Shown: piece after piece, positions 2,903 through 20,849 of the stretch
Layout of the letters: the number at the start of each line of letters is the position of its first letter
How positions within the stretch are numbered: the stretch's first letter is position 1
Virus record (IMG/VR): IMGVR_UViG_3300047550_001098
Location: 1 to 21,482 of that record
Strand: one strand, 5' to 3'
Origin: a virus
Length of the DNA stretch: 21,482 bases
Position numbers and translations under genes: made by a program
Notes under the pieces: model-generated
What the model was told of the DNA's origin: nothing
Database searches by the model: none
The model's input: the letters and a program-made list of their open reading frames with translations, nothing else

Positions 2903-3406
2903 TTATTCCGGCATCTTTTTGTTTTCGAGGATCTGTTTAAGTAGTGCATTACGATCCACTACCACAGCTTGTCCATCAATGGGTTTGTTCATAATTGTGT
3001 CATTTTTGGCAGCAGTTTGATCTAAACGTAATTTTTTCAGCTGTAGATCAATCATTTTGAGCTTTTTGTCAATTTTGGCTTGTTTGGCAGTGATGGCATG
3101 ACCTAGTAGTACACCGGCAGTTTGTAGTATTTGTCCACTGAACCTAGCTTCCACATTCATACCTAGGTTCATGAGATCTTCAAACTTTTCTTTAGCCATG
3201 TTACTGAGTTCGTCCAACTCATCATCGGCTGAGTCTAAGTCGCGTACCTGTGGCAGTGCTTGGTCAATGCGATCTACTATTTCAGTGGCATCTGCCAGTT
3301 GCTGTCGTTGTTGTTCGATTAACTCAACAGGATCTACCTGTAATGGTTCTGGCTCTCCGGGCTCAGGTGTAGCCAAATCGAACAGCTCTTCGAGACGTTT
3401 TGTCAT
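2903..3406 (-). CDS. 16: Terminase small subunit gp16
   Basis: The product is the DNA-recognition and regulatory partner of gp17. Its 167 residues match the roughly 164 of T4 gp16 in length. The layout fits: an acidic, proline-rich N-terminus (to about 25), a first predicted helical segment (27-75), and a second strongly helical, lysine-rich oligomerisation segment (about 95-130, AKQAKIDKKLKMIDLQLKK). The tail carries an IDGQAVVVDRNALLKQILENK stretch. The GMNVEARFSGQILQTAGVLLG segment resembles T4-like small terminases of aquatic phages. The gene starts 8 nt after the stop of gene 4 and has no obvious Shine-Dalgarno, so it may depend on coupling. Identity rests on pattern and context (gp17 is three genes on), not on an alignment. 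Confidence 0.78.
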   Translation of the reverse strand: MTKRLEELFDLATPEPGEPEPLQVDPVELIEQQRQQLADATEIVDRIDQALPQVRDLDSADDELDELSNMAKEKFEDLMNLGMNVEARFSGQILQTAGVLLGHAITAKQAKIDKKLKMIDLQLKKLRLDQTAAKNDTIMNKPIDGQAVVVDRNALLKQILENKKMPE

Positions 3407-3414
3407 AAGATTAT

Positions 3415-3852
3415 TTAGCGACGGCTTTTAAGGTTACTGTAGATATCGCCTTCGGATACAACACGAAATCGCATGCCATAGGCCTTGCACCAGGCATGAG
3501 CTGCTGCCCATTTGGCTTGATTCAGTGCCACCGCAGCACGATCACGCACACTACGAGCATTTTCCATGCTGACTTCTTTACTAGGCTTGACTTCTACTAC
3601 TTCAGCATGTTTTTGTCCAGTGCGATCTACATAGACCATCATAAAATCCGGCACGTAGATGGTATTACGACCAGTAAAGGGATTGCGATAGGGTATCATA
3701 AATGGTTCGCTAGCCCATTGCAGCACACTGGGATTATTGTCAGCAAAGGCCATGAAGGTAAATTCCCAACTGCTACGATATGTAGGTTCTTTGCGCCCTA
3801 CATATTTTTCTGTGTTCTTGACTGTGTATTTGCCTTGGGCGTACTTACTCAT
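3415..3852 (-). CDS. 4: Head completion protein gp4, TnsA/PD-(D/E)XK nuclease fold
   Basis: T4 gp4 finishes the DNA-filled head before neck attachment and is related to the TnsA endonuclease fold. The signature is visible: YRSSWE with E30, YVPDF with D69, and EVVEVKP with E87 and K89. These are the expected E, D and ExK residues of a PD-(D/E)XK active site, so the fold looks catalytically intact. A conserved NQAKWAAAHAWCKAYGMRF helix follows. The length of 145 aa matches the T4 protein (about 150). The ATG overlaps the stop of the upstream 126-aa gene by four bases (ATGA), implying coupled translation. Whether it cuts DNA, perhaps trimming the packaged end, is not established by sequence alone. 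Confidence 0.9.
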   Translation of the reverse strand: MSKYAQGKYTVKNTEKYVGRKEPTYRSSWEFTFMAFADNNPSVLQWASEPFMIPYRNPFTGRNTIYVPDFMMVYVDRTGQKHAEVVEVKPSKEVSMENARSVRDRAAVALNQAKWAAAHAWCKAYGMRFRVVSEGDIYSNLKSRR

Positions 3853-10005: not shown

Positions 10006-10054
10006 CTCCATGGTTAGCGGTCCTTTCCAAGGTCCTTTGGAAATAAATATCAGC

Positions 10055-10396
10055 ATGAAAAGATCCGTTTGTCCACAGTGTCGAATACACCCAGTGGCTA
10101 TCAATTACTACAGAAACAACAAGGTACACTTTCGTACGCTATGCACGCCTTGTATACATAAACGTCGTCGCACAGCAGTAAACGTACCTGGATGGCTAAG
10201 AGCTGGGTATAAAAAACGTGATCGCTGTGAACGCTGTAATTTTAAATTTAAGTTAACCGAACAGAGTACGGTATACTATGTGGATGGCAACACCGGCAAC
10301 AACCATTGGAGTAATTTACGTACTATTTGTGCTAATTGTAGCTTCGATGTGAAAGATTCACACTGGAGACCTAGTCGGATTCTGCCAGATTCTTAA
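10055..10396 (+). CDS. Small double zinc-ribbon protein with HNH-like C-terminus, 113 aa
   Basis: Four CxxC pairs (C6/C9, C30/C33, C58/C61, C92/C95) are spaced as two zinc-binding ribbons joined by a basic PGWLRAGYKKR linker. The segment YYVDGNTGNNHWSNLRTICANC (split here: YYVDGNTGNN, then HWSNLRTICANC) resembles the metal-finger half of HNH nucleases, but the catalytic His pair is not obvious, so nuclease activity is doubtful. I recall similar proteins in cyanophage-like T4 relatives without a proven function. Nucleic-acid binding is likely. I chose ATG 10055 (MKRSVCPQC) because it begins the recognisable domain. An in-frame ATG at 10010 would add 15 residues and lies right after a promoter-like -10. 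Its 3' end overlaps gene 1, read from the other strand, by 26 bases. Confidence 0.8.
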   Translation: MKRSVCPQCRIHPVAINYYRNNKVHFRTLCTPCIHKRRRTAVNVPGWLRAGYKKRDRCERCNFKFKLTEQSTVYYVDGNTGNNHWSNLRTICANCSFDVKDSHWRPSRILPDS

Positions 10397-11024
10397 CTTG
10401 TTGATATAAGCGTTCAATAGTACTGTTATTGTCTATAACAAGATCAAACTTAGTGGCTAACCATGCCCACTCGCTGGGATGGATGTCGGGATACCGTGAT
10501 GCCATATCACGTTGTTGATCAGAGATAATCCACTGTTCGTCTTCGGCAGTATGCACAGTCTGTAGCGCACAGGCCAGCCATTCCGGCGGTGCTCCACGTT
10601 CTACACAAACCAGTTTACCGCCAGAACGCCTAATAGCTGCCACTTCATTAGGAAAACGCACATCCGAAATCACAATATTGTCTGTGCTTTTCAGTAACTT
10701 GTTCTCTAAACTAGCTACCCAGATGTCATCATGAAAGCCGTGACGACACACATCAGTGCCCCAGTACTGTAGGATCCAGCGTGGTGTAAGCGTGGGCATT
10801 TTTAGCCGTTCGGCCCACCAAGGATCTACTTGTTCACGCCAGGCACGACTAGCAGCAGTACGCCCTTCCAGCATGATTCTGTCCCAGCCAAACACACAGG
10901 CCACAGCATCTTTGAGAGTGTTAGCAAAACTTTCACGGCGATACCCATGATAATTAACCAAGTAATCGGCCACAGTGTCTTTGCCTGAGCCAATGAATCC
11001 TGATATACCAATGATTTTAGCCAT
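10371..11024 (-). CDS. 1: Deoxynucleoside monophosphate kinase gp1
   Basis: The enzyme phosphorylates dNMPs to dNDPs for phage DNA synthesis, in the cytoplasm. The P-loop GFIGSGKDT at residues 9-17, with K15, is intact. IVISDVRFPNEVAAIRRSGGKLVCV is the characteristic middle strand and switch of the T4 gp1 family, and the helical HPSEWAWLATKFDLVIDNN segment is near the end. The length of 217 aa is close to T4 gp1 (241). It is a metabolic, normally early gene set inside the late cluster. A perfect TTGACA-N17-TATAAT promoter lies just upstream, with only seven nt between the -10 and the ATG and no Shine-Dalgarno. Late read-through from gene 13 could also reach it. Confidence 0.93.
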   Translation of the reverse strand: MAKIIGISGFIGSGKDTVADYLVNYHGYRRESFANTLKDAVACVFGWDRIMLEGRTAASRAWREQVDPWWAERLKMPTLTPRWILQYWGTDVCRHGFHDDIWVASLENKLLKSTDNIVISDVRFPNEVAAIRRSGGKLVCVERGAPPEWLACALQTVHTAEDEQWIISDQQRDMASRYPDIHPSEWAWLATKFDLVIDNNSTIERLYQQVKNLAESD

Positions 11025-11031
11025 AGCTATA

Positions 11032-11060
11032 ATTATAGCCAGGGCTCGAAGTTATGTCAA
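11032..11060 (-). promoter_or_regulatory. Perfect sigma70 promoter for gene 1
   Basis: TTGACA (11055-11060) and TATAAT (11032-11037) on the minus strand are separated by exactly 17 nt. The -10 is followed by seven nt and then the ATG of gene 1, so the transcript should be leaderless or nearly so. The -10 lies in a 14-nt palindrome, GCTATAATTATAGC. Confidence 0.9.
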
Positions 11061-14173: not shown

Positions 14174-14425
14174 CTAAGTTGACAATAGAGCTAGTGTAAC
14201 ATATTGATCTAAACTTGTCACGGACTCTGTGAACTTGTTGCGTAAATCCCACAGTCGGTGGCTGTCCCGCTGATTTCTACAATTCACCTGCTCTTGTGCC
14301 ACAGCACGACGCAGATTTTCGCAGTTTTTGTACATGCGTTTAAGATCCATTCTTACACGGCTGTTAGACATGGCGGCAATACGCTGTGGCAATTGCTCAT
14401 AGATTTCCATGATTTCCAAATCCAT
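14174..14425 (-). CDS. Small helical protein of unknown function, 83 aa, first gene of an early-type operon
   Basis: The protein is polar and predicted almost wholly helical (LEIMEIYEQLPQRIAAM, then VRMDLKRMYKNCENLRRAVAQEQ, then LWDLRNKFTESVTSLDQYVTLAL). No known domain is recognised. I chose the ATG at 14425 over the TTG at 14431. The TTG overlaps the -10 hexamer of the promoter and so would not be in the RNA. The ATG lies five nt beyond the -10, so translation is probably leaderless. It is followed by the 393-aa gene after 10 nt, and the two form one unit. Regulatory or adaptor roles are possible but nothing in the sequence decides. Confidence 0.72.
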   Translation of the reverse strand: MDLEIMEIYEQLPQRIAAMSNSRVRMDLKRMYKNCENLRRAVAQEQVNCRNQRDSHRLWDLRNKFTESVTSLDQYVTLALLST

Positions 14426-14430
14426 AGTCA

Positions 14431-14459
14431 ATTATATATGCTTTGTGCAAGAATGTCAA
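14431..14459 (-). promoter_or_regulatory. Perfect sigma70 promoter for the 83-aa/393-aa operon
   Basis: TTGACA (14454-14459) and TATAAT (14431-14436) on the minus strand are separated by exactly 17 nt. The ATG at 14425 lies five nt past the -10. The architecture is the same as at gene 1. It sits 10 nt from a divergent late box for gene 14. Confidence 0.9.
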
Positions 14460-14468
14460 CTCAGAATC

Positions 14469-14476
14469 CATAAATA
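14469..14476 (+). promoter_or_regulatory. Late promoter, CATAAATA, upstream of gene 14
   Basis: CATAAATACTAG differs from the T4 late consensus TATAAATACTAT only at the first and last bases. It lies 20 nt before the TTG start of gene 14, with the AGGAGA site in between. Confidence 0.75.
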
Positions 14477-14496
14477 CTAGATACAGGAGACCGGCA

Positions 14497-15582
14497 TTGG
14501 CACGACTTAGTTTATGGAAGGCAGGGCGTCATAGCAATGATTATCGTTTCTTTGACCGCAGAATTTCGGAAATATTTACCATTGGTGGTACTGGGATACT
14601 GGTACACAAATATCTGGGACCCATAGATCAAGGCACCACCGGTGATCTTACACTGCCTGCTAATGCTAACCAAAGCGAACTAAACATACAAGATCTGCTG
14701 TTTTTAGAAAACCGTAATCGTCGTTACGAAGACAACGTCTACAGACTGCGCGGACACTATCAAGTCACTGACAATGCCTTTGATCTCACACAATTTGGCC
14801 TATTCCTGCAAACCGGTACATTGTTTATGACCTTTCATATCACCGACATGATTGAAAACATGGGTCGTAAAATCATGAATGGCGACGTACTGGAATTGGA
14901 ACATCTCATTGATTACGAAACCCTAGACCCTAACATACCGGCGGCGCTGAAAAGGTTTTTTGTAGTCAGTGATTGTACTCGTGCTGCCGAAGGTTACTCA
15001 CCAACTTGGTGGCCACATCTTTGGCGCTGCAAGATCAATCCCTTAGTTGATAGCCAAGAGTACAGCGATATTTTAAATCGCATCAAAGTCACCGAAGGCA
15101 GTAATGTTCCTATACGAGACATACTCAGTTCCTATGAACAGTATAAAGATATCAATGACGTAATTATAGCACAAGCAGAAATCGATTTACCACAGAGTGG
15201 TTATGATGTAGACCCAATTTATCATCGTAGTACAGATGAAAACACACCTGATTTTAAGGTCAATGGGTATTTAAGTGGCACAGGAGCTCCACCAAACAAC
15301 GTGCCAGTGGTGGCTGGTATTAGTTTTCCGGCAAGCCCTGATCTAGGCGACTATTGCCTACGCACAGATTATCAACCCAACAGACTGTTTAGGTACGACG
15401 GCAAACGCTGGATTAAGATCGAAGACGATGTTCGTACTAACATTACCAATAATGCCAGTACCAATACCACACAGCGTAATAGATTCATCAACAATACAGC
15501 CACGTTTACTGATGTACGCGGTGATACGCAAAACAGTAAACAAAATCTACATGATGTGCTGAAAATTAAACCCGACAACTAA
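14497..15582 (+). CDS. 14: Neck protein gp14-like, 361 aa, TTG start
   Basis: gp14 joins gp13 in the neck. Visible features are IQDLLFLENRNRRYEDNVY, a DLTQFGLFLQTGTLFMTFHI strand pair, GRKIMNGDVLELEHL (compare the GDLIYFP turn of T4 gp14), and RAAEGYSPTWWPHLWRCKINPL. T4 gp14 has 256 residues; the C-terminal 100 here add a GDYCLRTDYQPNRLFRYDGKRW module and an Asn/Thr-rich tail. I chose TTG 14497 because AGGAGA lies 6 nt before it and the late box lies further upstream. The ATG at 14443 would fall upstream of that box and leave an unlikely N-terminus. Position between gp13 and gp15 supports the name, and the match is by pattern rather than alignment. Confidence 0.72.
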   Translation: MARLSLWKAGRHSNDYRFFDRRISEIFTIGGTGILVHKYLGPIDQGTTGDLTLPANANQSELNIQDLLFLENRNRRYEDNVYRLRGHYQVTDNAFDLTQFGLFLQTGTLFMTFHITDMIENMGRKIMNGDVLELEHLIDYETLDPNIPAALKRFFVVSDCTRAAEGYSPTWWPHLWRCKINPLVDSQEYSDILNRIKVTEGSNVPIRDILSSYEQYKDINDVIIAQAEIDLPQSGYDVDPIYHRSTDENTPDFKVNGYLSGTGAPPNNVPVVAGISFPASPDLGDYCLRTDYQPNRLFRYDGKRWIKIEDDVRTNITNNASTNTTQRNRFINNTATFTDVRGDTQNSKQNLHDVLKIKPDN

Positions 15583-15585
15583 TCT

Positions 15586-17019
15586 ATGAGTTCATACTTT
15601 TATTCAGGGCAAGTAAGACGCTTTTTGCAGCAGTTTATACGCTTGCTTTATAATTTCGAAGTCAGTCTAGGAAAAAACCGCGAAGGCATTGGTACACTAA
15701 TGCGTGTGCCAGTGTACTATGGCGACGGTAGTAGGCAAGTAGCTAGCATTATAGCAAAAAACAGTGAAAATAATTTACCAGCGGTACCAGCCATGACTGT
15801 GTATATTGCCAACCTGCGCTATGATCGACCTAGAATACAAGAACCAAGTTTTGTCAGCAGCCTACGCATACGCGAGCGAGCCTGGGATCCAGTCACACAG
15901 CAGTACACAGATTATCAAGGTGATCTACTAACTGTGGAAAGACTTATGCCGGTTCCTTATTTACTCACCCTAAAAGTAGATATTTGGACCAGCAACACAG
16001 ATCAGAAACTACAGATATTAGAACAACTATATGTGCTGTTTAATCCAAGTTTGGAAATACAAAGCACTGACAACTATGTAGACTGGACCAGCCTGACAGT
16101 GGTTACCTTGACTGACCAGACATTTACCAGCCGCAGTGTACCAGTAGGCACAGAAGATCCCATTGATGTTGCTACCTTGACCTTTGACATACCAATTTGG
16201 CTTAGTGCACCTGCTAGAGTTAAGAAACAAGGTGTTATACAAAAGATTGTGGCCGATGTCTATGACAGCCAAGGCAGCATAGACAATTCTATAAACAGTT
16301 TTGATATCACAGGTAGCTTGTTCTTAAATCGTCAGATTTATACTCCTATTAATTTCAATGTGGTCTATACCGGTAACACACTAAAATTATACGTTAGTGA
16401 CAGCGTGGTAGAATTTGACGATGAACTAGAACCTCCTATGAATGAAGGTAACTGGGAGGTAGCTGTACGCAGTTTTGGTGAATTAGCCAATACCGGTAAT
16501 GTCAGTTTTTTGACCAATGGCATCAGTCAAGTGCAACTAGAAAACGACGGCAACACCGTGGTGGGCACAGTGGCCTATCATCCTACTGATGTAAGTTTGT
16601 TGATATTTAATGTGGACACTGACACCTTACCTGCCAACACACTAGCCCCTGTAGATGCAATCATTGATCCATTTACAATTACAGTGAACAGCACTTATTT
16701 GTTTCCAATAATTGGTGTACGTTACTTGATAATTAATCCCATTGGCAGTGCGGCTAATTCCGACGGCAACACAATGACCATAGATGGCCCTTTGTTATGG
16801 AACAGAACGAATCAGCCCGAACTCATAGCCAATGCCAATGACATCATTGAATGGACTGGTACACGTTGGATTGTGGCATTTGACAGTGCGGCTACTACCA
16901 GTATACAATACGTAACTAATCTTACTACCACTATACAATATCGATGGAAAAATCAACAATGGACCAAGGCAGTAGAAGGCCGTTACGGGGTAGGAGCCTG
17001 GAGTTTCGTTCCAAACTAA
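15586..17019 (+). CDS. 15: Tail terminator / sheath stabiliser gp15, with C-terminal extension
   Basis: T4 gp15 caps the tube and sheath and connects the tail to the neck. The first 220 residues follow its pattern. They start with SYFYSGQVRRFLQQFIRLLYN, then RVPVYYGDGSRQVASI, then a PAMTVYIANLRYDRPR strand region. Next come PVPYLLTLKVDIWTSNTDQKLQILEQL, FNPSLEIQ and the closing LTFDIPIWLSAPARVKK. T4 gp15 has 272 residues; this has 477. The extra half is beta-rich and ends with two tryptophan modules (IIEWTGTRWIVAF and YRWKNQQWTKAV). It starts 3 nt after gp14 with no visible Shine-Dalgarno, so coupling is probable. The Nudix gene begins inside its 3' end. Confidence 0.87.
   Translation: MSSYFYSGQVRRFLQQFIRLLYNFEVSLGKNREGIGTLMRVPVYYGDGSRQVASIIAKNSENNLPAVPAMTVYIANLRYDRPRIQEPSFVSSLRIRERAWDPVTQQYTDYQGDLLTVERLMPVPYLLTLKVDIWTSNTDQKLQILEQLYVLFNPSLEIQSTDNYVDWTSLTVVTLTDQTFTSRSVPVGTEDPIDVATLTFDIPIWLSAPARVKKQGVIQKIVADVYDSQGSIDNSINSFDITGSLFLNRQIYTPINFNVVYTGNTLKLYVSDSVVEFDDELEPPMNEGNWEVAVRSFGELANTGNVSFLTNGISQVQLENDGNTVVGTVAYHPTDVSLLIFNVDTDTLPANTLAPVDAIIDPFTITVNSTYLFPIIGVRYLIINPIGSAANSDGNTMTIDGPLLWNRTNQPELIANANDIIEWTGTRWIVAFDSAATTSIQYVTNLTTTIQYRWKNQQWTKAVEGRYGVGAWSFVPN
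16880..16909 (+). promoter_or_regulatory. Candidate sigma70 promoter for the Nudix gene, inside gene 15
   Basis: TTGACA at 16880-16885 is followed after 18 nt by TACAAT (16904-16909), or after 16 nt by TATACA. A second TATACAAT lies at 16932-16939, four nt before the Nudix ATG. Because the segment also codes for a repeated TTxIQY peptide in gp15, chance is possible. Confidence 0.35.
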
Positions 17020-17432
17020 CACAAGGTGTAGGTGCACTGATCTACGCCAAAGACACTGGTCGTTACTTGTTTTTGCTGCGCCAAGGCGGCAGTTGGGCAG
17101 CTACCTGGGCATTGCCCGGTGGCAAGGTTGATTCAGGTGAAACTGTGGTCACAGGACTAGCCAGAGAAATCGAAGAGGAACTGGGCGGACGCATACGCGA
17201 TCCCAAACTAATTCCCATAGAACGTTATACCAGTTCAGATCACAAGTTTGTGTATCACACCTTTTTCGTAGCTGTTGAGCGAGAATTCATGCCAGTGCTC
17301 AACGACGAACATTCAGGCTATGCTTGGTTGCCTTTGCAGTTTGCGCCAAAACCCCTGCATCCTGGCATTGTACGCACCGTGGCCGAACAGGACATCATGG
17401 CCAAAATACGTGTAGCAGAATCAGTCAGCTAG
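16944..17432 (+). CDS. Nudix hydrolase, 162 aa
   Basis: The complete Nudix box GX5EX7REUXEEXG is present at residues 60-81 (G60, E66, R74-E75, E78-E79, G81), so the metal-binding glutamates are intact. The surrounding strands (GVGALIYAKDTGRYLFLLRQ before it, HTFFVAVEREFMPV and YAWLPLQFAP after it) complete a single-domain pyrophosphohydrolase. Substrate cannot be read from sequence; nucleotide sanitising or RNA 5'-end processing are family options. The ATG lies 76 nt inside gene 15 and lacks a Shine-Dalgarno. The true start could be later, since the conserved domain begins near residue 20, where the only nearby candidates are non-ATG. It may be expressed with gp15 or from a candidate internal promoter. 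Its 3' end overlaps the convergent propeller gene by 12 bases. Confidence 0.93.
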   Translation: MEKSTMDQGSRRPLRGRSLEFRSKLTQGVGALIYAKDTGRYLFLLRQGGSWAATWALPGGKVDSGETVVTGLAREIEEELGGRIRDPKLIPIERYTSSDHKFVYHTFFVAVEREFMPVLNDEHSGYAWLPLQFAPKPLHPGIVRTVAEQDIMAKIRVAESVS

Positions 17433-20400
17433 ACTGTAAGTAAAGACCTGACCTTCAGTGCCAGAAGATGTGATAAACAATCTGCGTCCTTGATCGCCAT
17501 AGCTGAGACCACGCACAGTCTTGGTATACTGACTTAGAGTAAACTGCGGCCGTGTGCGCTGCCATTGTGCCAAATTGGTAGCAAACGGTGTAGTAGTGGC
17601 ATATTCATGCAAGTAGGCCTCTTGATTGGTAGCAGCACTGAGCACCACAAACCTAAGCCCGTTGTCGGCCCAGACAATGTCTCTGGGCGTGGTGCCGCCA
17701 CGATCTGCCAACATGCTGAGTTCATAGGTCAAGGTAGCTGTGTTGACATTGAATGGTGCAGTCATGGTATAGTGCATGATGGTGTTGCGTGTGGTGCCTA
17801 CTATCCATAGGGCTGAACCATCAGCACGTATCCATATGCCCTGTGGATTATGTTCAGGTGTGGTCAACAATTTTCGCTGTACAGCCGACAGTGATGCGGA
17901 ATTATAAGCTGAAGTAGCTGCAAATTCAGCTACGCCAGCTGTGCTGCTAGTGCCGGTCACACAAACAAACAACTTGCTGCCATCATAGCTCCACTGGAAT
18001 CCAGTTGCTGTGGTTTGACCGTGTGTACCAGATTGATTATAGATGGCTGACATGGTATCCCAAGGTGTGGTCAACACATATTCACGTAGCTGTGTGCTGT
18101 TGAGCACATACATCATGGTGCCCGTGGCATTAAACCTGGCCTTGCCTGAGCTGTTGTCTACAGCCAACCAACCCGTGCCTTGTGTGAGCAAGCCACCTGA
18201 CACGGTGTTGTTGTAGGCAGGAAATGTTGCTGTGTTTAGGTCCCAGGCCGTTGTGAGTGTGTATCTATTCACGCGACTGCCACTGAGCACAAACATTCTG
18301 GTACCACCTTGATTAAAGGTCACCGCAGTGCTGCCAAATGGCATGTTGCGTGTGGCTGTGACTGTGCCAGTGTGTATGAGCTCTGCTGTGCCTAGTGTGT
18401 ACTCAATGATTTGGTCTGTGAGCTGATCATTGGCTATGTAAAATCTAGTAAGATCAGGCTTGACTGCTATGTCTACAGGACTCACTGTATATGGCGGTGT
18501 AAACCAACCTAGACCAGACTCTATGGCATTGACTGTGACTGAAGTCAAGCTGAAATTGGTGTTGAGACGAGCTTTGACCACACAGTCACGGCTGGTACTC
18601 AACGCTATACTGAGATATAACCATTGGCCGTCGGCACTCACAGTCACTGCCTGTACCTGTCCATTGACACCAGTGATGTTTAAGCTATCGACATTTAGGG
18701 TACTGTTTAGTGTGGCCGACGTGATTTCCCAGGCCTGGCTCAAGTACCAAGCAGCTACACGTCTAGCACCAGTGGTGCCTGTGCCTTGTGTGCCGCACAC
18801 ATATAGATAACGTCCGTCTTGACTGAATGTCATGCCCAACATGGTACCAAGTCCGGCAGAAATTGCTAGCTCATTGCTCACAGGTTGACTGCCCGACGAG
18901 TAGCTCTTGTAAGCTGTGGTTATGTTCCAGGCTTCGGTCAAGGTCAACCGCACTACCTGATCTGGCACACCTAGAGTCACAAATACTTCTGAGCCGTCGT
19001 CACGGAAATCTATGCCATATGGTGCTGTAGTCAGTAATGTGGAGCCATTGGCCATGGTTCTGGTATAGGTCACTGTGTTGATCTGCCAGGCAGTGCCTAG
19101 GCCAAATTCCCAGATTCTGCCCGAGCCTGATCCGGTCACATACATTCTGGTGCCGTCGGGTTTGAAACAGATGGCATAAGGACTGCCTACCACTGACATG
19201 CTGCGATTTTTAGTACTGTCATAGATGGCCCAGGAAAAATCATAGGGATTCAGCACTGCATACTGTTCCAGTCTAGTGCTGCTTTGATTGACCATGACCA
19301 AGGTTTCACCGTCGGGACTAAAAGCAAAACCGGTATTGGTCACACGACGTATGGCGCTGCTGGTATAGAAATGCGTGGCTGTGCCTAATTCGAATGGCGT
19401 GGTCAAGGTAAAATAGTAACCGCGGTCATTGCCGCTGCCAAACACTATCAACTGTGACCCATCACCGCTGATCCAAAGATCACGCGGTATGGTATCATAG
19501 CTTTGTAGATCTAATTTGGCACCTGAGTGTGTGGCCGAACTGATATTCCATGCTTCAGCACAGATCCACTCGGTCACACAGTATGAACTAGGACCTGCTT
19601 GTGTGCTGATACCCACAATGTAAAATCTCGAGCCATCGGCAGTGAACGTGATACCGCGTGGTGTTTTTTCCACAGTGGTCACACTGAGTATGGGACCATT
19701 GGCACCACCCACCTGTGCTGAGTCCAGTTCCCAGGGCGTGTTCACAGTGACCTGAAAAATACGATTCCTAGCACTTCCACCAATGTACATTCTGGTGCCA
19801 TCTAGGCTGAAATGTACAGCAGTGGGCACAGTTTCGTCGAACACAGTGTTGGTGCCCACGGCCACGCTTTTGCCCGAGTATGTGGCAGTGCTGAGTTCAC
19901 CGGCGGTGCCTAGGTTATACTGATACACACGATCTGAAGTGCTGCCGATGACATAGACTCGATTTCGTGCTTGATTTATGTAGACATCCTGTGGTTGACT
20001 GTCTTGACTGTTGACTGAGAATCCTGAACCCACACGCACATTGCCTATGCCGTGATCGGTGTCCATGATCAGCTCAACCACTACGTCTGCGCTGCGTTCA
20101 GACACAGCAATCATTTTGCTGCCGTCGGCATTGACCTGAATACCTCTGAAATTTATCAAGCTGGTGCCACCGTATTTCAGTGCACCGTTGACTATTCTGG
20201 GATAGCTATAGATGCCGTCCCAACGAGCTGTGCTGATGTCCCAATTGGTACTCAGGCTAAATTGCAGTATGGCATTACTGAGACCATAACCACCACCGTT
20301 GGGCAGTGTTATGGTTCCCAGGGCTAGCACATACATCTTGCGACCATTGTGCGTGAATGCCAGGCTGCGTATGTCTGTGGGCACACATGCCACCGATTTG

Positions 20401-20849
20401 GGGTCGAAACTGTGTACATAACTGGCACCGGCAACTTGATAAGGTGTGGCGCAGTTGTACTCATAGATTAGATCTGTGCTTAGGCCGCAATAGTATAATT
20501 TATTACCCGAATCACCAAAGGTCATGCCAGTGGGCGAGGTATCCTGACTGCCCAGGCTGAGTTGTTGCCCTAGTTGTACGTTGCCAAATTGTTCAGCATT
20601 GTATAATTTGTACTCTTGTACGCGGTCGAAACTGCCAGCAATCATGACCCAGAATTGACTGCCATCTATGCCGTTGTAGATGATATCACCAGCAGTTTGT
20701 GTGGTGTCTATGTTGAACCTAGGCCAGGTGTCAGTGCCCAGCCACTGCAGAGAAGTTATGCTGTAGTTAGCTGTGTTGGCATCGAAAGCTGGTGCAGCTG
20801 GTGTGGCCGTCACTGTGCCAGCTGCGGCCTGTAGCCATTGCGTAAACAT
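17421..20849 (-). CDS. Giant multi-blade beta-propeller virion protein, 1142 aa
   Basis: About twenty imperfect repeats of 50-60 residues fill the protein. Each has the form F-x-x-D/N-G-x-x-MYV-x-G, a variable loop, I/V-x-x-Y-x-L-x-T-x-W-x-I-x-T-A. Good examples are FSLDGTRMYIGGSARNRIFQ, FKPDGTRMYVTGSGSGRIWE and VNRYTLTTAWDLNTA. These are four-stranded blades of a WD40/NHL/lactonase-like propeller, so the count suggests three propellers of six to seven blades. I recall such arrays in tail or fibre proteins of aquatic phages. There is no signal peptide, transmembrane segment or enzymatic motif. Its ATG shares a base with the stop of the fibre-like gene upstream (TAATG), so the two are coupled and probably form one surface structure. 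A receptor- or glycan-binding role is inferred. Confidence 0.85.
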   Translation of the reverse strand: MFTQWLQAAAGTVTATPAAPAFDANTANYSITSLQWLGTDTWPRFNIDTTQTAGDIIYNGIDGSQFWVMIAGSFDRVQEYKLYNAEQFGNVQLGQQLSLGSQDTSPTGMTFGDSGNKLYYCGLSTDLIYEYNCATPYQVAGASYVHSFDPKSVACVPTDIRSLAFTHNGRKMYVLALGTITLPNGGGYGLSNAILQFSLSTNWDISTARWDGIYSYPRIVNGALKYGGTSLINFRGIQVNADGSKMIAVSERSADVVVELIMDTDHGIGNVRVGSGFSVNSQDSQPQDVYINQARNRVYVIGSTSDRVYQYNLGTAGELSTATYSGKSVAVGTNTVFDETVPTAVHFSLDGTRMYIGGSARNRIFQVTVNTPWELDSAQVGGANGPILSVTTVEKTPRGITFTADGSRFYIVGISTQAGPSSYCVTEWICAEAWNISSATHSGAKLDLQSYDTIPRDLWISGDGSQLIVFGSGNDRGYYFTLTTPFELGTATHFYTSSAIRRVTNTGFAFSPDGETLVMVNQSSTRLEQYAVLNPYDFSWAIYDSTKNRSMSVVGSPYAICFKPDGTRMYVTGSGSGRIWEFGLGTAWQINTVTYTRTMANGSTLLTTAPYGIDFRDDGSEVFVTLGVPDQVVRLTLTEAWNITTAYKSYSSGSQPVSNELAISAGLGTMLGMTFSQDGRYLYVCGTQGTGTTGARRVAAWYLSQAWEITSATLNSTLNVDSLNITGVNGQVQAVTVSADGQWLYLSIALSTSRDCVVKARLNTNFSLTSVTVNAIESGLGWFTPPYTVSPVDIAVKPDLTRFYIANDQLTDQIIEYTLGTAELIHTGTVTATRNMPFGSTAVTFNQGGTRMFVLSGSRVNRYTLTTAWDLNTATFPAYNNTVSGGLLTQGTGWLAVDNSSGKARFNATGTMMYVLNSTQLREYVLTTPWDTMSAIYNQSGTHGQTTATGFQWSYDGSKLFVCVTGTSSTAGVAEFAATSAYNSASLSAVQRKLLTTPEHNPQGIWIRADGSALWIVGTTRNTIMHYTMTAPFNVNTATLTYELSMLADRGGTTPRDIVWADNGLRFVVLSAATNQEAYLHEYATTTPFATNLAQWQRTRPQFTLSQYTKTVRGLSYGDQGRRLFITSSGTEGQVFTYSLAD

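Follow-up and report, generated by a model that had tools for sequence, protein, structure and literature searches.

Promoter and start codon of gene 1

How would gene 1 of an uncultured T4-type phage be translated if a consensus promoter lies so close to its ATG that almost no leader remains? We analyzed the 21,482-nt virus record IMGVR_UViG_3300047550_001098 (the window), and for this phage's own genome the results cover this stretch alone. The window carries a T4-type structural region with sheath, two tubes, sheath stabilizer, head closure, neck, and gene 1 (PHROGs). Homology of gene 1, sheath, tubes, and neck places it in the T4-type jumbo phage lineage (Atu_ph07, PA5oct, and CBB kin), with identities to Atu_ph07 and PA5oct-like phages of 43–46% for the sheath and 42–47% for gene 1; no near DNA match to phage isolates was found. 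A 1142-aa protein at 17421–20849 (−) has beta-propeller-like matches (SGL, lactonase, and WD40) and is perhaps a fiber or adhesin.

Gene 1 (10371–11024, minus strand) encodes a 217-aa deoxynucleoside monophosphate kinase (phrog_139, E 7e-51; Pfam DNMK, E 2e-14). Its promoter, found at the same place in orthologs, is a perfect sigma70 site at 11032–11060 (−), with TTGACA at 11060–11055, a 17-nt spacer, and TATAAT at 11037–11032, followed by the 7-nt discriminator TATAGCT (11025–11031) and the ATG (11024–11022). Shine-Dalgarno (SD) motifs were absent from the 20 nt upstream of the ATG, ccctggctataattatagct. The first-pass annotation had reported this promoter, its 7-nt distance to the ATG, and the lack of an SD, all of which we confirmed, and its proposed leader of 0–2 nt agrees with the spacing; a leader of 0 nt is most likely, with A11024 of the ATG as the predicted +1. 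This prediction assumes an E. coli-like sigma70 spacing, from which that of the host may differ, and the pyrimidine bias before ATGs described below supports the assumption. The protein begins with MAKIIGISGFIGSGKDT; because its P-loop begins at about residue 8 and orthologs share the start, the true start does not lie downstream of this ATG.

We propose that host sigma70 RNA polymerase would start the gene 1 transcript at the A of the AUG, presumably early and from a strong promoter, and that the resulting mRNA would open with its start codon, a 5'-terminal AUG bound by a 70S ribosome with initiator tRNA. Judged from sequence, gene 1 is very probably leaderless in this way and belongs to a regular leaderless class of the lineage.

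The motif TTGACA-N15–19-TATAAT occurs twice in the window, against 0.03 expected, and none of 100 shuffles contained two copies. The first-pass annotation had suggested searching for further perfect promoters near ATGs, and the window holds one: TTGACA-N17-TATAAT at 14459–14431 (−), 5 nt before the ATG at 14425, with the discriminator TGACT at 14426–14430 and a predicted +1 at A14425. This second copy and the late class described below are additions to that annotation. The gene behind it (14174–14425, minus strand; predicted leaderless) had been listed from TTG 14431 and encodes an 83-aa protein. The window thus has promoter-to-ATG distances of 7 nt (gene 1, lacking an SD) and 5 nt (83-aa gene). 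An 11/12 sigma70 match at 16880 lies within the sheath-stabilizer coding sequence and was set aside as a promoter; its fixed 34-nt offset in kin favors coding constraint.

The 83-aa protein represents a new family, whose homologs form subfamilies linked by profile comparison and share Met1 and a Ser-x-Glu-x-Val-x-Cys-Arg-like motif; Met1 is invariant across 28 proteins, with a mean column identity of 45%. The gene is sigma70-leaderless by spacing in 25 of 26 close homologs and also in remote subfamilies, even in some phages that have an SD-led gene 1. Structure prediction gave a three-helix bundle (pLDDT 88), for which no significant PDB fold match was found, and the protein had no PHROGs or Pfam family and no homolog in phage isolates. 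The helical family is widespread among uncultured T4-type phages. On the opposite strand (14470–14499), the start of a divergent gene, given in the ORF list as TTG 14443, is more probably TTG 14497, which follows a late box ATAAATA (14470–14476) and AGGAG; the late promoter of this gene and the putative leaderless early promoter share ~70 bp. The mechanical ORF list misplaced three starts in the window.

Spacing of early and late promoters

We surveyed ten large records from relatives (57–250 kb each, ~1.3 Mb together), which are fragments ascertained via window proteins, for sigma70 sites with at most 1 mismatch. Distances to the ATG fell into two groups, with 28 sites at 3–8 nt, 2 at 9–14 nt, 3 at 15–19 nt, and 64 at 20–45 nt, whereas reversed and scrambled hexamers gave only 3 and 2 sites, respectively, at 3–8 nt. 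Counting distinct proteins over all loci, 57 genes are predicted to be leaderless, at distances of 5 (16 genes), 6 (31), and 7 nt (10), with none at 2–4 or 8 nt, 5 at 9–14 nt, and 101 at 18–38 nt. An SD was present at 0 of 28 short-spaced starts and at 49 of 67 leadered ones. A pyrimidine preceded the ATG in 25 of the 28 short-spaced sites (p = 4e-4) and, among distinct genes, in 50 of 57 leaderless vs. 54 of 101 leadered cases (p = 9e-6); this bias fits a +1 at the A, since a pyrimidine-purine start is expected. Genes behind these sites include gene 1 and those for NUDIX, 5'-3' exonuclease, DNA methylase, exoribonuclease, MazG-like, primase-like, and glycosyltransferase proteins. Leaderless-sited genes on further IMG/VR contigs encode proteins that resemble, as judged by eye, T4 DNA polymerase and clamp loader. 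Across IMG/VR, an ATG 5–7 nt after a perfect promoter opened an ORF in 84 of 127 cases, compared with 35 of 122 at 9–11 nt (p = 4e-9), so leaderless sigma70 starts would not be unique to this lineage.

The same spacing was found at T4-type late promoters. A late box ATAAATA at 10043–10049 (+) lies 5 nt (TCAGC) before the ATG at 10055 of a 113-aa Cys-rich HNH-like protein (10055–10396, plus strand; Pfam HNH, E 1.8e-4), whose ORF had been listed from 10010 although the conserved start is ATG 10055. The box CTAAATA (one mismatch) at 3412–3418 (−) lies 5 nt (ATCTT) before the ATG at 3406 of a 167-aa gene (2903–3406, minus strand; phrog_16202 in PHROGs, function unassigned). Both genes are predicted to be late and leaderless; the spacing is retained in 89 of 94 distinct upstream regions of the HNH-like gene, at protein identities as low as 32%, and in 16 of 18 orthologous upstream regions of the 167-aa gene. 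The promoters fit the T4 late type, which has the octamer TATAAATA, no −35 element, and a start ~6 nt downstream. Before window genes, NATAAATA stands either 26–46 nt away with an SD or 5 nt away; the gp55 gene itself is outside the window. Just upstream of the 10043 promoter, in the region that separates the HNH-like gene from the divergent sheath gene, the equivalents of 10015–10042 in relatives retain either a palindrome, CCTTT..AAAGG, or a repeated GGTCCTTT, which may be an operator or a terminator.

In relatives, distances from the late NATAAATA box to the ATG were 4 (13 sites), 5 (30), 6 (6), 7 (9), and 8 nt (2), with none at 9–15 nt and the others at 16 nt and more, and permuted octamers gave a flat distribution. 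This amounts to 60 leaderless and 151 leadered late promoters, near-identical relatives being counted separately. An SD was identified at 0 of 60 leaderless and 104 of 151 leadered starts, and a pyrimidine preceded the ATG in 57 of the 60 (p = 4e-8). The peak spacing is 6 nt after the sigma70 hexamer and 5 nt after the late box. The sigma70 −10 hexamer spans −12 to −7 and so ends 6 nt short of +1. The 8-bp T4 late box has its first base at −13 and ends at −6, 5 nt short of +1 (PMC2988020). The two peaks match the two promoter geometries, which argues that the A of the ATG is +1 in both, in a comparison that was not planned in advance. At the late genes, presumably, a gp55-type holoenzyme initiates at the A of the AUG.

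Gene 1 would be one member of a regular class: ~30% of recognizable promoter-gene junctions, early sigma70 and gp55-type late alike, are predicted to be leaderless. The class is a regular minority in this uncultured lineage, neither early-specific, because T4-type late promoters show it too, nor universal. The first-pass annotation had suggested a leaderless early message and had thought leaderless use as a rule unusual for a T4-like phage. A sigma70 promoter that puts the start codon at most 1–2 nt from the predicted +1 agrees with the former, but the restriction to early genes does not hold. Leaderless spacing does recur in the lineage; however, it is no rule, as the remaining junctions have 16–45-nt leaders, mostly with an SD.

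States of gene 1 and alternative explanations

We fetched 80 gene 1 loci, classed 150 orthologous starts, and built a tree from 115 distinct proteins. The starts comprised 26 leaderless, 100 SD-led with a promoter, 15 with an SD-like motif alone, and 9 unclear. The promoter position is kept in most orthologs, and its distance to the ATG takes two states, 5–7 nt without an SD in the close group vs. ~18–26 nt with an SD in the others. Seventeen leaderless rows fall within the clade of the window (support 100/98), and its sister clades are SD-led. The leaderless state requires at least 3 changes on the tree, with the starred branches forcing three, compared with a shuffled mean of 17.9; L070 is a leaderless case nested among SD-led sequences, and the third case, L100, is distant, both placements depending on long branches. 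In several SD-led relatives (L009, L011, L014, L017, L018, L024, L030, L110, L138, and L143), the gene 1 leader forms a hairpin, for example GCTCC-TAA-GGGAGC, with TTTTTT between it and the ATG, which puts the SD inside the stem; the hairpin could be an attenuator, a stabilizing 5' stem-loop, or a terminator.

Among the alternatives, we regard it as possible, though less likely than not, that leaderlessness reflects genome compaction alone and has no translational consequence. A 40-nt gap separates gene 1 from the same-strand gene upstream and is filled exactly by the promoter, and the −35 box often abuts an upstream stop codon, as compaction would have it. However, leadered promoters lie against an upstream stop equally often, for which reason we rejected compaction as the factor separating the two classes, and certain genes have kept the leaderless state despite extensive divergence, whereas others are never leaderless. 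Compaction in any case disputes the purpose of leaderlessness and not leaderlessness as such.

It is improbable that gene 1 is instead translated from a longer transcript started upstream, with the sigma70-like site secondary or inactive. The same-strand gene 40 nt away makes read-through likely late in infection, and read-through from upstream promoters may indeed add longer SD-less mRNAs. Nevertheless, such a long transcript would likewise have no SD, the near-consensus site persists with quantized spacing while its flanking sequence diverges, and in the sister clades the orthologous promoter persists, followed by a leader that carries an SD.

Still less credible is an error in the annotated ATGs, by which the true starts would be downstream codons with their own SD and a short leader. 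The 83-aa ORF of the window does have an in-frame ATG at codon 6 after GGAAATC, but this Met is missing in its homologs, whose Met1 never varies, and in gene 1 the early P-loop and the start shared with orthologs speak against it. Chance resemblance of AT-rich DNA beside ATGs can be dismissed on statistical grounds: weak sigma70-like sites in the window do match shuffles (43 vs. 41.5), yet the excess of perfect sites (2 vs. 0.03), the bimodal exact spacing, the controls, and the cross-clade conservation do not fit it.

We therefore retain a leaderless gene 1, transcribed from a host-sigma70 promoter, as the preferred reading. The reasons for leaderlessness may be a saving of ~25 nt in each gene or a mode of initiation that does not rely on the SD. 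One speculative and rather unlikely extension of the latter is that two parallel translation classes exist per temporal stage, which would allow a conserved gene set to be expressed even under a block of SD-dependent initiation. In this reading, the block might come, for example, from 16S 3'-end cleavage in defense or from 30S subunit competition, and the set would comprise gene 1, the 83-aa gene, and the HNH-like gene, together with DNA polymerase, clamp loader, primase, and 5' nuclease in kin.

Comparison with known systems

T4 is a textbook example of a phage with SD-led translation, and a literature search, most subscription papers being beyond its reach, turned up no T4-type phage for which leaderless genes have been described. 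As far as the searched literature shows, a T4-type lineage with ~30% predicted leaderless genes in both temporal classes is new, as is the switching of one gene between the two states under a conserved promoter. With this share of predicted leaderless promoters, and with gene 1 having changed modes at least three times at one promoter, the lineage is a natural experiment that bears on the question of why genes are leaderless. Further, start-codon and promoter callers that require an SD or a 5' UTR will put start codons in the wrong place in such common environmental phages.

Cultured T4-type phages, including T4, KVP40, S-PM2, P-SSM2, CBB, Atu_ph07, and the PA5oct-like Cassandra, resemble the lineage in having early sigma70 and late NATAAATA promoters and share gene 1, sheath, and tube homologs with the window, but leaderless sites are rare in them. 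Leaderless to leadered late promoters numbered 0/27 in T4, 0/20 in KVP40, 1/26 in S-PM2, 1/36 in P-SSM2, 0/37 in CBB, 1/33 in Atu_ph07 (first 320 kb), and 4/39 in Cassandra, and the corresponding sigma70 counts were 0/2, 0/10, 0/4, 2/18, 1/46, 1/37 (first 320 kb), and 1/12. In Cassandra, these are a candidate sigma70 site at 29416 (+) and four late sites 5 nt from the ATG. The relatives differed from four of these isolates (T4, Cassandra, Atu_ph07, and CBB) for both late (p = 4e-10) and sigma70 promoters (p = 2e-7).

Leaderless and SD-led genes also coexist within one genome in mycobacteria and Caulobacter, which are cellular and have other promoter types. The Thermus phage phiYS40 likewise has a class of leaderless mRNAs alongside ordinary ones, confined to the middle/late class, and P23-45 is similar. 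However, phiYS40 belongs to an unrelated lineage and host, and its leaderlessness is tied to temporal class, whereas the present lineage has leaderless spacing at ~30% of both sigma70 and late promoters. During phiYS40 infection, IF2 goes up and IF3 goes down (PMC3594737). Phage translation factors as a cause here are suggestive at best and were not adopted: phage-encoded IF3 was confined to isolates with few leaderless sites (Phosso, Atu_ph07, and CBB) and none was found in the leaderless-rich records of the relatives, which are fragments, and bS21 and IF1 are patchy. One relative, G002, encodes both IF1 and bS21.

Leaderless translation is itself well established, and its closest single-gene parallel may be the lambda cI mRNA from PRM, the model leaderless mRNA, which has a sigma70 promoter and its AUG at +1 (PMC9031893), as predicted for gene 1. 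In lambda, this is a single repressor gene; in the present lineage, it would be a genome-wide class that includes replication and structural-region genes.
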